The notes beneath the pieces were generated by a model. The model was not told where the DNA came from, did not search any database, and worked only from the letters and a program-made list of their open reading frames with translations. Positions 22,368 to 53,215 of a DNA stretch of 61,430 nucleotides are shown here, in pieces. Made by a program: the position numbers and the translations under genes. This DNA comes from Bdellovibrionales bacterium RIFOXYC1_FULL_37_79 (GTDB lineage: Bacteria > Bdellovibrionota > Bacteriovoracia > Bacteriovoracales > Bacteriovoracaceae). Position 1 is the stretch's first letter, and each line of letters opens with the position of its first letter. Location of the stretch: contig MEQB01000038.1 in the NCBI GenBank assembly GCA_001770015.1, forward strand, positions 1 through 61,430, read 5' to 3'.

Positions 22368-22742
22368 TTAGCAAGTAGTTGAGGTGTTGGCGAATTTTTG
22401 GACCAAATTTAAAAGTTCATCAGGGCGAAAAGGTTTTTTAATAAAACATTTAGCATGGCCATTATTGATAATTTTGTGAACATTCACATCGCTAAAGCCA
22501 GACATAAGAATGGTAGGTGGAAACCCTTTTAAATATTCAACGAGTTGAGCACCATTCATTTTAGGCATTCTGATATCACTGATTACAAGGGATATTTGTC
22601 CCGCATAAGTTTTGACAAGATTAATCGCCTCTTCTCCATTTTCAGCAGTAAGGGCGATATATCCTAAAGATTCGACTAATAAAGTTAATACATCACGTAT
22701 GTCTTGCTCATCATCAACAACAAGTACATATTTTGCACTCAT
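22368..22742 (-). CDS. Stand-alone response regulator
   Basis: Single CheY-like receiver: acidic pair in VLVVDDEQD, phospho-acceptor in LVISDIRMPKMNG, T/S position in LMSGFSD and lysine in FIKKPF. The start is the ATG at 22742 (MSAKYVLVVDDE); the frame is open further upstream only because it runs into the IS. Before the IS insertion it would have followed the CHASE4-like kinase gene almost directly, so it was probably the last gene of that operon and its cognate partner. The IS now separates it from upstream transcription. Confidence 0.88.
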   Translation of the reverse strand: MSAKYVLVVDDEQDIRDVLTLLVESLGYIALTAENGEEAINLVKTYAGQISLVISDIRMPKMNGAQLVEYLKGFPPTILMSGFSDVNVHKIINNGHAKCFIKKPFRPDELLNLVQKFANTSTTC

Positions 22743-22767
22743 AAATAATCCAAAATTTAAGTTTTGT
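22651..22767. repeat. 117-bp target-site duplication, left copy
   Basis: Identical, by base-by-base reading, to 24657-24773. It covers the first 30 codons of the response regulator and the last codons of the kinase gene as they stood before insertion. Confidence 0.92.
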
Positions 22768-24656
22768 CCTGACTTCCGCAATTTGAATTGCGTCATTCAA
22801 TGATTATAGTATGTTGAGTTACCCTTGGGGTCACTACACTTACTTGTTAATCATTTTAATTTTATCATTGATTGTGAGATTAAAGGCGTTGTAAATTTTT
22901 CTCTGAAGTTCTGTTATTTTAGAGGGAAGAACAAATTTTCTTCCAGTTTTTTTATCTTTCACAATACTTACTTCTAATCTACTCAACTCATTTTGTATTT
23001 CTTCAAAACTGAGTTTTATATTTTTTTTGTTCAATTTATAACGAATAAAACTGGTTAAACTATAGGCAATAAAACAAATTAAAATATGTGCCTTAATTCT
23101 TTTGGTGGTCCAGTGATAAATCGGTCGCATTTTTAAATCATGCTTATTCACCCTAAATACAGCTTCAATTTGCCATAATCCTGTATACCTTTTTAAAATT
23201 TCTGAGGAACTTAAATCATTCGACAAGTGATTAGTGATAACACCATGAATGCCATCCCATTGTGCTTCCTGTTCGATTTTTTCCAGGTTTAATGTGGCCT
23301 CCTTAGCACCCTTACTCTCCAGCTTTAAATATTTTTTTGTTCCGGTATTATTGATTAAATCAGCAAGACGAACTTTTCCATTAGTCATTTTTTTCTTTAT
23401 ACGTTCAATCAATCTCTCCCGGTCTTTCTTATCCTTCTCTGCGCGTTTTTTGCTATAAGAAACTACTAACCTTCGTCCATCATGTTCATAATCTTTTACA
23501 AATTTTTCTAACTGACTATTTTCTGCTTTTACCAATGCTATATCTGCAACAATTTGTCCTTTGATTGTCCTGTTGAGTATCTTTAATTTCGCAGCAACAA
23601 TAAACTTAACTTTTTTCTCATCAAGTTTGGATAAGTTGGCATGAGTGAACATTGCTCGATCTGCAACAATAAATGTCTCAGATAAATTATATCGCTTTTC
23701 CAACTGTTCAATCACTGTAATAAGCGTATTTCCCTCGTATGTATTGCCTGGATATAATTCGTAATCAAGTGGTAACCCTTCGGTCGTGCTAATCAGTGCA
23801 AGCATCACCTGGGTTTCTTTAAACTTATTATCCTTGCTAAAACCAAAATTTCTAAGCTCATCAGGTGTAAAGCTTTCAAAATAAAGTGTCGTCACATCAA
23901 AAAAAGCAACGTCAACTTTTTGGTTTAAAAGATCAAGTGTTGATACACGAATCTTATCCTTAATACGATTTTGACAGGTATAGACTTTATCCATCATGCG
24001 ATAAACTTTATCCAAATCAAGCTCAATGTTTTGCTCTTGCTCGATATTTCTAACACTTTTTCTTTTACTAACAGGATCACTAATACGAGAGAGAACAATC
24101 TCCTTTAACAGTTCATTGGAATCTTCTTGCCTGTAACCGGTATCAATTGAAGTTTCCAGATCAAGTTGCTCGTAGGCATGAGAAAAAACATCAACGAGAC
24201 CGGCATTGATCCTTGCCTCTTCTTCAAGGCATTTAACGTTGACCGTATTTTCTTTTACTGGGGTTCTCTTTTTAGATGCATGAACTATTTCTTCCATTCC
24301 GGGAAGGGCAGGGTTTATTTCATTTTTGATTTTAATTATCATTTCTTCAGCGATACGTTTATGCATTTCAATTTTTTCAACATTGTCCTTATGAAAATGT
24401 CCGACACAGCAGACGGTCTTTTGCTTAACTTTATCCCCGATACGTTGATTTTCAACGATACGGATAGAAACATGATTGTCATTTTTTTTCACTATTCGTA
24501 CAAACATGCTTTCAAGAATAATATTAAAAAACGTGCAGTCAAGGCCTTGGGCCACTACATTTGACCTTTTGGAAGAAAATAAGTGGAACTTATTGGAAAA
24601 TATGAAAAAAAATAATCAATTTTCGGAAAAAATTAAATCAAATTGCGGAAGTCAGG
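22768..24656 (-). mobile_element. IS1634-family insertion sequence (1,889 bp)
   Basis: Bounded by terminal inverted repeats CCTGACTTCCGCAATTTGA (22768-22786 and, as the complement, the right end to 24656). It carries one transposase gene and is flanked by a perfect 117-bp direct repeat. Long, variable target duplications are a known trait of the IS1634/IS1549 group. The intact transposase, matching ends and identical flanks indicate a recent insertion. Confidence 0.93.
22840..24507 (-). CDS. IS1634-family transposase
   Basis: DDE transposase of IS4-superfamily type. Candidate catalytic acids are the Asp in VAFFDVTTLYFES, the Asp in FIVADRAMFTHANL and the Glu in GLWQIEAVFRVNKHDLKMRPIYHW (the YREK-like region). 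Start at 24507 (MFVRIVKKND, the usual family N-terminus); sixteen extra residues upstream are unlikely. About 555 residues, full length. It recognises the CCTGACTTCC ends. Confidence 0.93.
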   Translation of the reverse strand: MFVRIVKKNDNHVSIRIVENQRIGDKVKQKTVCCVGHFHKDNVEKIEMHKRIAEEMIIKIKNEINPALPGMEEIVHASKKRTPVKENTVNVKCLEEEARINAGLVDVFSHAYEQLDLETSIDTGYRQEDSNELLKEIVLSRISDPVSKRKSVRNIEQEQNIELDLDKVYRMMDKVYTCQNRIKDKIRVSTLDLLNQKVDVAFFDVTTLYFESFTPDELRNFGFSKDNKFKETQVMLALISTTEGLPLDYELYPGNTYEGNTLITVIEQLEKRYNLSETFIVADRAMFTHANLSKLDEKKVKFIVAAKLKILNRTIKGQIVADIALVKAENSQLEKFVKDYEHDGRRLVVSYSKKRAEKDKKDRERLIERIKKKMTNGKVRLADLINNTGTKKYLKLESKGAKEATLNLEKIEQEAQWDGIHGVITNHLSNDLSSSEILKRYTGLWQIEAVFRVNKHDLKMRPIYHWTTKRIKAHILICFIAYSLTSFIRYKLNKKNIKLSFEEIQNELSRLEVSIVKDKKTGRKFVLPSKITELQRKIYNAFNLTINDKIKMINK

Positions 24657-24773
24657 AGGGCGATATATCCTAAAGATTCGACTAATAAAGTTAATACATC
24701 ACGTATGTCTTGCTCATCATCAACAACAAGTACATATTTTGCACTCATAAATAATCCAAAATTTAAGTTTTGT
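24657..24773. repeat. 117-bp target-site duplication, right copy
   Basis: Second copy of the duplicated target. It contains the real stop of the kinase gene (24763) and a dead copy of the first 30 codons of the response regulator (ATG at 24748, running into the IS end). Confidence 0.92.
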
Positions 24774-26472
24774 GTGGCAAAATTATTTGAAACGTTGTGC
24801 CCTTTCCTAAATCAGTTTTAAAAGTAATTTCACCACCATGATCCTTCACAGCACCATAAGCTAATGATAGGCCTAGCCCAGTGCCTTTGCCAACCGGTTT
24901 TGTGGTAAAAAATGGATCAAAAATATGCTCTTGAATCTCCTCCGAAATTCCTTGGGCGTTGTCTGTAATTTTAATAATAATTGAGTTAATTGTTTTGTCA
25001 TACATTGCATGGATTGAAATTTTTTTATCCATTGTATGTGAGTTTTCGGCTAAAGCGTCGCAGGCATTTGAAACCAAGTTTTGGATAAGTGTTTCTATTC
25101 TTATTGGATCGCATAGAAATGGAGGGATATCTTTTTGGATATCAAGCTCGATTTGGATAGAGAGCTGATCTATTTGCATTTTTAATAAAATAAGAGATTT
25201 GTCAATTATTGATCCAAGATCTGATTTAATTTCTTGAAGACCATTTGATTCTGCCCTGCTAAATTCCCGCATCCGGTCAACCAATATACGCATTCGTTCA
25301 GCTTGATGCAAAATTGCGCCAAGTTGTTTTTTTAATAACTCGGGGGGGAGTTTGTTCTGTTCACTGAAGGTGATAAGGATTTGCGCGTTGGAGAGTATTA
25401 CAGTTAAAGGATTATTAAACTCGTGCGCAATACCAGCGCCAAGGATACCAAGGGAGGCCATTTTTCCGGCATGAAAAAGTTGTTTTTGCAGTTTTTCTTT
25501 TTGAATTTTGGTCTGTTGATAGTTACCCACCAGTCTGGCCAATGATCCGAACTCGTTAGCTGACGAAATATAAGGGTCTAAAATGGATAAATTTTCGGAT
25601 GAAACGGCGTAAGTCAAGGCCTTGATTGGCCTGATCACTCTTAAGTATAAAAAAAATAGTAGCACTGTAATCAGGCTAATAGAAAAAGTCGTGAAGAATA
25701 TTAATGAATAACGGGCAAAATTAGTAGCGGTTTTATTAAGTTGGTTTTCAATTTGGGTACAAAGAACTGCAATGGTTTTATCCTCATGATCATGTAGATC
25801 TTTTGAAATTTGAATCATATTTTGGTTTTCTGATAATGGACATTGATTTTGCTTGGTGGTGATGAAAGTTTTTCCGCCAACAAGATTACCGAGATTATCA
25901 ATGTGTTTTTGATCCCAAATTTTGGCAGAGAAAAAATAACCCAGCGGTTTTTTTGCTTCACGGTTGATATCATCTTCGAGATGAATCCAAGAACCAAAAA
26001 CCTCGGCAATTTCCCCGGAATTTAATAAGATGAAATAATGGGTTAGCCAACTTTTTTGAAATAAATTGTCAACGGTTGGAACATTTTTGACTGACGGAAA
26101 GGATAAAAGGGGAGATAGGTCTCTGTTGACTTGGTAAACTTTTTTACCTTTTTTATTAAACACCCATGTGTAATTCACGTTAAAGGTGTTCAATGATACA
26201 TCAATATTAATTTTGGCCCAGGCTTGATCTTTACTAAGCGTAAAGCGATACATATCTGTCCAGTGCGAGTAGTCTTCAATATATTTCTGAAGTGTTTGGC
26301 TTTGTAAATTCAAAATTTGATTCAAATTGTTGGTAATGCTATGTTTATTTAATTGGTTCAAATGAATAATTTTTTTGGATTCTAAAATATTCGAATACAA
26401 AATAGCCAGTGCCAGAGAAAATGATAATAAAAGAAAAAGTCCAAGAAACTCTGCTAGAAGGGATTTTCTCAT
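24763..26472 (-). CDS. CHASE4-like membrane histidine kinase
   Basis: About 570 residues: N-terminal membrane helix (LGLFLLLSFSLALAILYSN), a periplasmic CHASE4-like domain (HWTDMYRFTLSKDQAW, later KVYQVNRDLSP), a second helix (about 255-280), a HAMP-like linker (RVIRPIKAL), HisKA with phospho-acceptor in GIAHEFNNPLTVI, and HATPase_c with N box, [22 protein letters not shown] and GTGLGLSLAYG. Start at 26472, overlapping the preceding regulator stop (ATGA). The stop codon lies inside the right target duplication, so the IS left the gene intact. Confidence 0.9.
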   Translation of the reverse strand: MRKSLLAEFLGLFLLLSFSLALAILYSNILESKKIIHLNQLNKHSITNNLNQILNLQSQTLQKYIEDYSHWTDMYRFTLSKDQAWAKINIDVSLNTFNVNYTWVFNKKGKKVYQVNRDLSPLLSFPSVKNVPTVDNLFQKSWLTHYFILLNSGEIAEVFGSWIHLEDDINREAKKPLGYFFSAKIWDQKHIDNLGNLVGGKTFITTKQNQCPLSENQNMIQISKDLHDHEDKTIAVLCTQIENQLNKTATNFARYSLIFFTTFSISLITVLLFFLYLRVIRPIKALTYAVSSENLSILDPYISSANEFGSLARLVGNYQQTKIQKEKLQKQLFHAGKMASLGILGAGIAHEFNNPLTVILSNAQILITFSEQNKLPPELLKKQLGAILHQAERMRILVDRMREFSRAESNGLQEIKSDLGSIIDKSLILLKMQIDQLSIQIELDIQKDIPPFLCDPIRIETLIQNLVSNACDALAENSHTMDKKISIHAMYDKTINSIIIKITDNAQGISEEIQEHIFDPFFTTKPVGKGTGLGLSLAYGAVKDHGGEITFKTDLGKGTTFQIILPHKT

Positions 26473-26921
26473 TCTTCCTCTTGTTTTCTTTTTTGGGCAA
26501 GATTGAGGGAAATACTTTTGGCCCAATAGTTCAACCGCCCAAGACAAAGATCCAAAGCACCTTTCAATTTATTTTTATCGATGGGTTTGGCGATAAATGC
26601 AATTGCACCGTCGTTGTAAGCATTAATGACGGTGGTAATCATACTGTCGGCAGTGATAACGATACATTGCGTGCCCTTGCCCATATTCATGGCCTTTCTC
26701 ATTAGCTCGTCGCCTGGCATATCGGGCATAAAAATATCAGTTATGAGAATATGGAAACTGGTTTGTTCCAAATATGTTAACGCATCCTTTGGGTTGGTGG
26801 CACATATAACATTAAAAACTTCTTTGCCATATATTTTATGAATCATATCGGAAGCCATTGAAACAATTTCTTCTTGATCATCGACTAAAAGCAAATTATA
26901 AGGCTTGGAGATTATTTTCAT
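26469..26921 (-). CDS. Receiver-domain response regulator
   Basis: Receiver of about 125 residues with DDQEE acidic pair, phospho-acceptor in ILITDIFMPDMPGDELM, T in VITADS and lysine in FIAKPIDK, then a short helical extension (LNYWAKSISLNLAQKRKQEEE). No output domain. Translationally coupled to the CHASE4-like kinase (4-base overlap) and 3 bases after the chemoreceptor gene, so chemoreceptor, regulator and kinase form one unit. Confidence 0.88.
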   Translation of the reverse strand: MKIISKPYNLLLVDDQEEIVSMASDMIHKIYGKEVFNVICATNPKDALTYLEQTSFHILITDIFMPDMPGDELMRKAMNMGKGTQCIVITADSMITTVINAYNDGAIAFIAKPIDKNKLKGALDLCLGRLNYWAKSISLNLAQKRKQEEE

Positions 26922-51256: not shown

Positions 51257-51277
51257 TTTATAAACAGGAGAATGATA

Positions 51278-52135
51278 ATGAAAACGATTATATTTGCCCT
51301 TTTGTTTGTGCTGGCATCCAGATTCAGTCTGGCAGATTCCTGCGTTGCCCATAAAGCGGTTCCCAGCATTGATACCCTTTTGGCCCAAAAGGGGGCATCA
51401 TTTTGTCCGGGTGGATGCCAAAATAGTTATAAAATCCCAGCTGGCTCAACCCAGAGTATCTGGTATATGGGGAAATGTAGAAAAATTACTAATTTAAGTC
51501 TTGCTCAACCGGTATTTATACCTGCGAAAAATGAAGGCTTTTTTTCTTCTCAAGGTGTCGCCAAAGGAGATCCTAATCTCAAATGTGTTGGTGATTTCTA
51601 CCACACCAAAAATCAAGATGCAGGGAAAGAATGTCAGAGAGGTGTTGCTATAAAAGTTGAAGAGTGTGATAACCCTTACGTCGTTGAAGAGATTGTGGAA
51701 GTATGTTATCCAGGATGTAAATATACTTATGAGGAGGATCAAGAAGTGGATACCAGTGTTGATCCCCCTGTTGTTATAAAAGAGGGATTTAAGGAAACAA
51801 GATATTTTGGAGGGACTGGCACATGTACCTATGAAAAGAGAATCATACTGATGTGGGATGGTATAGGTCGCCATAATCCAAATGACAGTGCTGAAGTAAT
51901 CACCAGCGCCCCTTACGTGATGAATGAAAATTATGATAAAGTTTCATGTACAAAGGATGCTCCAGCTTGTTCTGGTAGTGCTGGGCACTGGATATGTTAT
52001 ACATGTAAGCCAGGGGAAGGGCTGGTCGGTTGTGATAATAAATCAGGCGATTGGAACGATGTTGGTCAACCCCCGGGTGAGCCCGCTCCCAAGGGCCACC
52101 CTACCAAAAGTGGAGGAACCACTGTTAGTCATTAA
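51278..52135 (+). CDS. Secreted Cys-rich protein, tandem paralogue 1
   Basis: 285 residues: signal peptide (TIIFALLFVLASRFSLADS) and 15 cysteines in the mature part at positions matched in the neighbour gene. Shared blocks are FCPGGCQ (FCPGKCQ in copy 2), SIWYMGKCRK, PVFIPAKNEGFF, VCYPGCKYTY, KETRYFGG, MWDGI, HDPNDS/HNPNDS and the tail HPTKSGGTTVSH. No family recognised; likely disulfide-rich and extracytoplasmic. The ATG at 51278 is chosen because its spacing to AGGAG matches copy 2. Own terminator follows. Confidence 0.7.
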   Translation: MKTIIFALLFVLASRFSLADSCVAHKAVPSIDTLLAQKGASFCPGGCQNSYKIPAGSTQSIWYMGKCRKITNLSLAQPVFIPAKNEGFFSSQGVAKGDPNLKCVGDFYHTKNQDAGKECQRGVAIKVEECDNPYVVEEIVEVCYPGCKYTYEEDQEVDTSVDPPVVIKEGFKETRYFGGTGTCTYEKRIILMWDGIGRHNPNDSAEVITSAPYVMNENYDKVSCTKDAPACSGSAGHWICYTCKPGEGLVGCDNKSGDWNDVGQPPGEPAPKGHPTKSGGTTVSH

Positions 52136-52351: not shown

Positions 52352-53215
52352 ATGAAACTGATGATAATGGTTTTTCTGCTTATGACAGTGAGTAGGATTT
52401 GGGGAGAAGCAGATATTTGTAAAAGTCCAAACAAAGTTCCGGACATAGATGCAGCCTTGGTCCAATTTGGGGCAGAGTTTTGCCCTGGCAAATGCCAGGA
52501 TATATATAAAATTCCTGCCGGAAATACCCAGAGCATTTGGTATAAGGGGAAATGTAAAAAGGTTATTAATTTAAGTAATAGCCAGCCAGTTTTTGTTCCG
52601 GCCAAAAATGAGGGATTTTTTTCAGCAAAGGGTGTTATCAAAGGACATAGCACTTTAAAATGTGTTGGTGATTTTTATAATACAAAAAAAACAGAGGCTT
52701 CCAAAGAATGTAAAAGAGGTGTTGCTATAAGAGTTGAAAATTGTGCTAATCCTTATGTAGCAGAAGAGGTTGAAAAAATTTGTTACCCAGGTTGCAAATA
52801 TACTTATGTACAGGACCAAGAAGTCGATATTAGCGTTAATCCTCCGAAGGTTATAAAAGAGGGGATCAAAGAAACAAGATATTTTGGAGGAGATGGTTCC
52901 CCTTGTACCTATTATAAAAAAATAAAATTGATGTGGGATGGCATCAGTCAACATGATCCTAATGATAGCAAAGAAGTTATTACAAGTGTGGCATACGTTT
53001 TAAATGAAAATTACGATAGAATTTCTTGCGTAAGATCAGTTCCAAATTGCAAGGGGGCAGCAGGCAAATGGATATGCTATAACTGTAATCCCGAGGAAAC
53101 CTATGCAGGATGTGATAATAAAACAACAGGATCTTGGAATAATGTGGAGTCGCCTGATGAGCCAGTTGATCTAGGACATCCAACCAAAGGCGGAGCAACC
53201 ACAGTCAGCCATTAA
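52352..53215 (+). CDS. Secreted Cys-rich protein, tandem paralogue 2
   Basis: 287 residues; signal peptide (LMIMVFLLMTVSRIWGEA), same 15-cysteine framework and block order as paralogue 1, ending HPTKGGATTVSH. Roughly two thirds of residues agree by eye. Separate promoter block and terminator show that each copy is its own transcription unit, so the pair arose by duplication of a whole unit. ATG at 52352 with CAGGGG 8 bases upstream. Function unknown. Confidence 0.7.
   Translation: MKLMIMVFLLMTVSRIWGEADICKSPNKVPDIDAALVQFGAEFCPGKCQDIYKIPAGNTQSIWYKGKCKKVINLSNSQPVFVPAKNEGFFSAKGVIKGHSTLKCVGDFYNTKKTEASKECKRGVAIRVENCANPYVAEEVEKICYPGCKYTYVQDQEVDISVNPPKVIKEGIKETRYFGGDGSPCTYYKKIKLMWDGISQHDPNDSKEVITSVAYVLNENYDRISCVRSVPNCKGAAGKWICYNCNPEETYAGCDNKTTGSWNNVESPDEPVDLGHPTKGGATTVSH

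Follow-up and report, generated by a model that had tools for sequence, protein, structure and literature searches.

Between a histidine kinase gene and a response-regulator gene of Bdellovibrionales bacterium RIFOXYC1_FULL_37_79, an insertion sequence lies in the window (the whole stretch of 61,430 nucleotides that was analysed), flanked by two direct repeats of 117 bp. It is asked here whether so long a repeat is the target duplication of the element, and how it might have been produced. The length of a target duplication is usually regarded as a constant that the transposase complex dictates through its geometry. Members of the IS1634 family are described as making repeats of 5-6 bp with two exceptions, IS1549 and IS1634 (De Palmenaer 2008, PMC2266710), whose long variable repeats are given there as 8-514 bp, with reference to Vilei 1999 and Plikaytis 1998; no mechanism had been proposed for them as of De Palmenaer 2008 (PMC2266710).

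The element and its target site

The element is 1,889 bp long (22768-24656) and is bounded by perfect inverted repeats, the left one, CCTGACTTCCGCAATTTGA, on the plus strand at 22768-22786 and the right one on the minus strand at 24638-24656. The two ends agree at 19 of 19 positions, or over 20 when the outer T/A is included, so the ends and coordinates given in the preliminary description hold. A single transposase frame of 571 aa, opening with GTG, occupies 22840-24555 on the minus strand; judged by conservation, the true start is probably the ATG at 24507 (MFVR...). The frame matches the NCBIfam model for IS1634 (NF033559) with 359.3 bits against a cut-off of 100, and DDE_Tnp_1 in Pfam, in agreement with the family originally assigned. 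The members of the family have 1,500-2,000 bp and one transposase frame, a DDE triad, an incomplete YREK motif mostly lacking the R, and ends of the form C-----YT (PMC2266710). The window element shares all of these: its length and frame fall in this range, its end reads CCTGACTT, the catalytic D220, D299 and E464 are invariant or nearly invariant in a 30-row alignment, and the motif is Y457-L460-E464-K471, with L in place of R. By the same L460, and by its 117-bp repeat, it departs from the strict IS4 family, which has a complete YREK and repeats of about 10 bp.

The predicted structure of the transposase (pLDDT 83) has its closest solved counterpart in the Tn5 transposase (PDB 1muh, Foldseek E 3e-10). 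The folds are alike, but the identity is only 13%, and the IS50 subgroup that includes Tn5 makes duplications of 8-9 bp (PMC2266710). When solved relatives were sought by sequence none was found, the sole weak match being a designed metalloprotein. Judged by its sequence and predicted fold, the window transposase is a DDE enzyme.

The repeat of 117 bp sets the element apart from the usual 5-6 bp members of its family, among them ISPfe2 and ISGka5, which belong to the same size class but have 6-bp repeats (PMC3281130, PMC8024623). Since the two founding elements also depart from 5-6 bp, repeat length separates subclades and does not decide membership. IS1634 of Mycoplasma mycoides and IS1549 of Mycobacterium smegmatis resemble the window element in family and in their long variable repeats, and differ in host phylum. 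The window element is a new member of a kind already known.

Copy 1 of the repeat (22651-22767) and copy 2 (24657-24773), both read on the plus strand, are identical at 117 of 117 positions, as had been described, and their length excludes a chance origin. The order on the minus strand is histidine kinase, element, response regulator. The kinase gene (24763-26547, minus strand; CHASE4, HisKA and HATPase_c domains) is intact and takes its stop codon (24763-24765) from copy 2, which also holds a fragment of 92 nt (24657-24748) from the 5' end of the regulator gene. The regulator gene (22368-22742, minus strand; Pfam Response_reg) is likewise intact and takes its start from copy 1. Because the repeat covers both the stop of the one and the start of the other, both genes remain whole. 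If the flanks are joined with one copy of the repeat, the kinase ends in ...IILPHKT*, a gap of 14 nt follows, and the regulator begins MSAKYVLVVDDEQD... (MSAKYVLVVDDEQ... in the joined reading), forming a tight kinase-regulator pair. The 117 bp thus appear to have existed once only before the element arrived, and the repeat behaves as a genuine insertion duplication, which upholds the earlier reading. The element now separates the regulator from the kinase, and a promoter scan there gave chance-level matches only. A recent insertion, as proposed, also fits the absence of any mismatch in the repeats or the ends, and the intact frame.

Elsewhere in the window, two tandem paralogous genes (51272-52135 and 52352-53215) encode Cys-rich proteins of 287 aa that are probably secreted; a 300-nt stretch is 72% alike between them, and their upstream stretches are alike too.

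Duplication lengths among relatives

It had been suggested that further copies and their flanking duplications be examined. No second copy was present in the element's own 4.36-Mb draft genome; copies in relatives gave 36 long flanking duplications besides that of the window. A weak 78-aa match to the IS1634 model in the own genome (G000:C26:150299-150466) is perhaps a remnant. The nearest transposases found are about 46-48% identical to that of the window and belong to a Bacteriovoracaceae MAG (JADHTQ010000035), where the element is cut by the contig end, and to an Oligoflexia MAG (JADFZW010000066), where the gene carries stop codons and no repeat is seen. The remark that the setting is non-mycoplasma and non-actinobacterial is borne out by these relatives.

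The survey drew relatives from MAGs, complete plasmids and whole genomes, in which element ends and adjoining repeats were called. The 37 long duplications with good ends, the window included, range from 23 to 680 bp with a median of 108, and three more were recovered by pairing flanks from different copies. Beside the 117 bp of the window we found 41 bp in a Proteobacteria MAG, 43, 50, 53, 108, 125, 255 and 400 bp in Mycoplasmopsis gallopavonis, 680 bp on an Aliarcobacter plasmid, 33 and 406 bp on Persicobacter plasmids, 608 bp in Mycobacterium riyadhense, 56 bp in Actinomyces oris, and 23, 27, 32, 61, 102, 127, 158 and 224 bp on Rhodococcus plasmids. Genomes chosen within the order and the phylum (Bacteroidota) to which a Flavobacteriaceae MAG belongs contributed 15 duplications of 32 to 629 bp, the longest of which (L196) reaches its contig end, so that its length is a minimum. 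Single mismatches occur in the duplications of 400, 608, 680, 150, 127 (L198) and 93 bp. Repeats at L007, L161 and L167/L177, which lie at a contig end or have poor ends, were left out of the counts. Relatives on the opposite side of the tree have repeats of 4-6 bp, among them those of Sulfitobacter and Alicyclobacillus with 6 bp and that of Geobacillus with 5.

As a control, the left flank of one element was compared with the right flank of another: 3 of 7,830 pairs matched over at least 20 bp, and all three join copies on one replicon. The lengths gave R 0.29 for a helical period of 10.5 bp, with p about 0.05 when the number of periods tried is left uncorrected, and no periodicity is claimed; the base composition of the duplicated stretch did not differ from that of the flanks. 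On the Aliarcobacter plasmid (NZ_CP099557.1, 35979-42313) the 680-bp duplication spans most of a crp/fnr gene, and the insertion has thus left a second, partial copy of it.

A single clade with long variable duplications

In a tree of 78 transposases, in which neither the root nor the direction of change is fixed, a 100/99 branch divides the rows into 61 and 17. All 33 rows labelled long, of which L007 is doubtful, are among the 61; the 17 include nine short ones and no long one. The window transposase stands on the long side. Fisher tests gave 3e-5 by rows and 8e-8 for the scored rows, values which overstate the evidence because the rows are related. The short-repeat members that were measured lie nearly all across this branch. 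On the long side there are two exceptions, a 5-bp copy in Rhodococcus jostii and an element on a Microbacterium plasmid (NZ_CP089591.1), present in two copies (L103 and L138), both flanked by the 5-bp TCCGA; in the latter F replaces W461, and a reversal to the short stagger is possible.

Residue 368 tracks the split, being S or T on the long side (S368 in the window) and N or D on the short side; E227 does so too, and W461 less cleanly. The element ends within the long clade read CCTG(A/T) or CCCGA, with CCTGA in the window. A clamp-type motif near residue 130, considered as a further marker, was rejected as not distinctive.

On these data the long variable duplication marks one deep and widespread clade of the IS1634 family, and not two oddities. 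Members of the clade occur in five phyla or more (Bdellovibrionota, Bacteroidota, Campylobacterota, Mycoplasmatota and Actinomycetota). Those of M. gallopavonis and M. riyadhense stand in for IS1634 and IS1549, the prototypes, which are putative members. The preliminary statement that long duplications are peculiar to relatives of IS1634 and IS1549 needs refining: they were seen in one clade only and are not typical of a family in which 5-6 bp is usual (PMC2266710), and a setting in Bdellovibrionota is not unusual for this clade. The literature searched, with most subscription papers and ISfinder outside its scope, held no clade-level account of the long duplications; within what was searchable, the clade rule is new.

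Separate joining of the ends and its alternatives

It appears probable that the window carries a recently inserted member of the long-duplication clade whose ends were joined at separately chosen places, the interval then being filled in. The base just outside the joint is T at 44 of 52 ends of non-actinobacterial elements, against a background of 0.31 (p about 1e-15); actinobacterial members have A there more often than T. Since as much as 680 bp may separate the two joints, each end seems to recognise a site of its own nearby, and the preference of each for its own T suggests that the two ends join the target strands separately. In the mechanism that we propose, the transposase would join one element end to each of the two target strands, at places chosen separately, with no fixed stagger of 5-6 bp; a host polymerase would then fill in from both target 3' ends by strand displacement, copying everything between the two joints. 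We infer the separate joining from the end preferences and the duplication lengths. Whether it can be extended to the whole clade is a more tentative matter: its transposases may have dropped the fixed DDE stagger in favour of independent end joining, with a duplication of tens to hundreds of bp at each event, a generalisation to which we give somewhat less than even credence.

The alternative that survives best, although we regard it as unlikely, is that the ends join two sister duplexes behind a replication fork at an offset, the transposase being held by the sliding clamp; a positive offset would give a duplication and a negative one a deletion. Such a model would accommodate the single copies in the clade that have good ends and no duplication (L214, L210, L211, L212, L207, L190 and L098), which count against the reading preferred here. 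In L214, a near relative of the window element, the repeat is absent within about 9 kb. Only part of a gene stands beside some of the repeat-less copies (L048, L098 and L210, and L047 outside the clade), which suggests that sequence may have been lost in some. The single copies without a duplication might also be due to recombination, to deletion or to a partner copy that escaped notice.

Two sets of repeat-less copies have other explanations. In the closed genome G456 two of the four copies lack a repeat; they lie in opposite orientation about 43 kb apart (L208 and L209, contig C1, about 2.013-2.058 Mb), and their flanks are swapped; with the boundary corrected by 2 bases, the repeats measure 156 and 281 bp instead of 154 and 279. 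Such a pattern is characteristic of an inversion, here of roughly 43 kb, through recombination between two copies, and once the inversion is undone all four carry long repeats, of 131, 156, 281 and 325 bp. Two copies in direct orientation on a plasmid of Corynebacterium faecale (L104 and L139; NZ_CP047205.1, about 82-88 kb) share a 513-bp repeat that is present only on the sides facing outwards, and SMR transporter and TetR genes lie between them; the pair is a candidate composite transposon with a 513-bp duplication. Three Mycoplasmopsis gallopavonis copies (L143, L146 and L147) have good ends and rearranged flanks, with repeats that are offset from the ends or a right flank that is another, truncated copy.

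Clamp binding is also in keeping with the sister-duplex model, as a C-terminal Q-x-x-hydrophobic-aromatic motif mediates beta-clamp binding in an Acidiphilium transposase of the family (PMC4549789) and the window protein has Q551-R-K-I-Y in the right place for such a motif. Since clamp motifs are reported family-wide, clamp binding alone would not explain the clade; it is compatible with a fork-coupled version of the process and is not clade-specific.

A far less probable explanation is that the element entered a pre-existing tandem duplication with a short duplication or none, or recombined with one. It draws on the lack of an empty allele of the window site among the genomes searched, 59 genomes of relatives containing only distant homologues of the kinase. 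The repeat, nevertheless, stops exactly at the element ends, and 36 other insertions among the relatives are arranged alike with differing lengths and sequences. An empty site can moreover be read for one of them: when the flanks of the Rhodococcus RDE2 element (L099, 102 bp) are joined with one copy, they match plasmid NZ_CP142145.1 in one piece, with 800 of 802 bases in agreement, and the repeat is present twice in the filled site and once in the empty one. For a 127-bp duplication (L137) three related plasmids match over the joint as a single piece with 82-84% identity. Joined-flank searches for L136, L140 and L056 found no empty site, and that for L098 gave nothing decisive.

Least credible of all is that the 117-bp repeat is an assembly artefact, a k-mer overlap kept in the contig: the 99-bp repeat of one MAG locus (L007, G083:C142) stops just where its contig does and may be a k=99 overlap of this kind instead of a target duplication, but neither gene flanking the window element would be whole without the repeat, about 20 of the long duplications sit in complete plasmids or closed replicons, and 117 is not known as a usual assembly k value.

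A clade with duplications of 23-680 bp offers a natural set for testing how the transposon ends are coupled, and its relatives across the branch, with repeats of 4-6 bp and a few diagnostic residues different, provide the contrast group. Annotation tools that seek repeats of a few bases will miss such insertions, assemblies break at repeats that exceed the read length, and inversions can be recognised from swapped duplications. A long duplication can leave the two genes at a joint intact, or copy a gene. If independent end joining is true, then the duplication from a single event would be large enough to leave the genes at the joint unharmed or to duplicate most of one.
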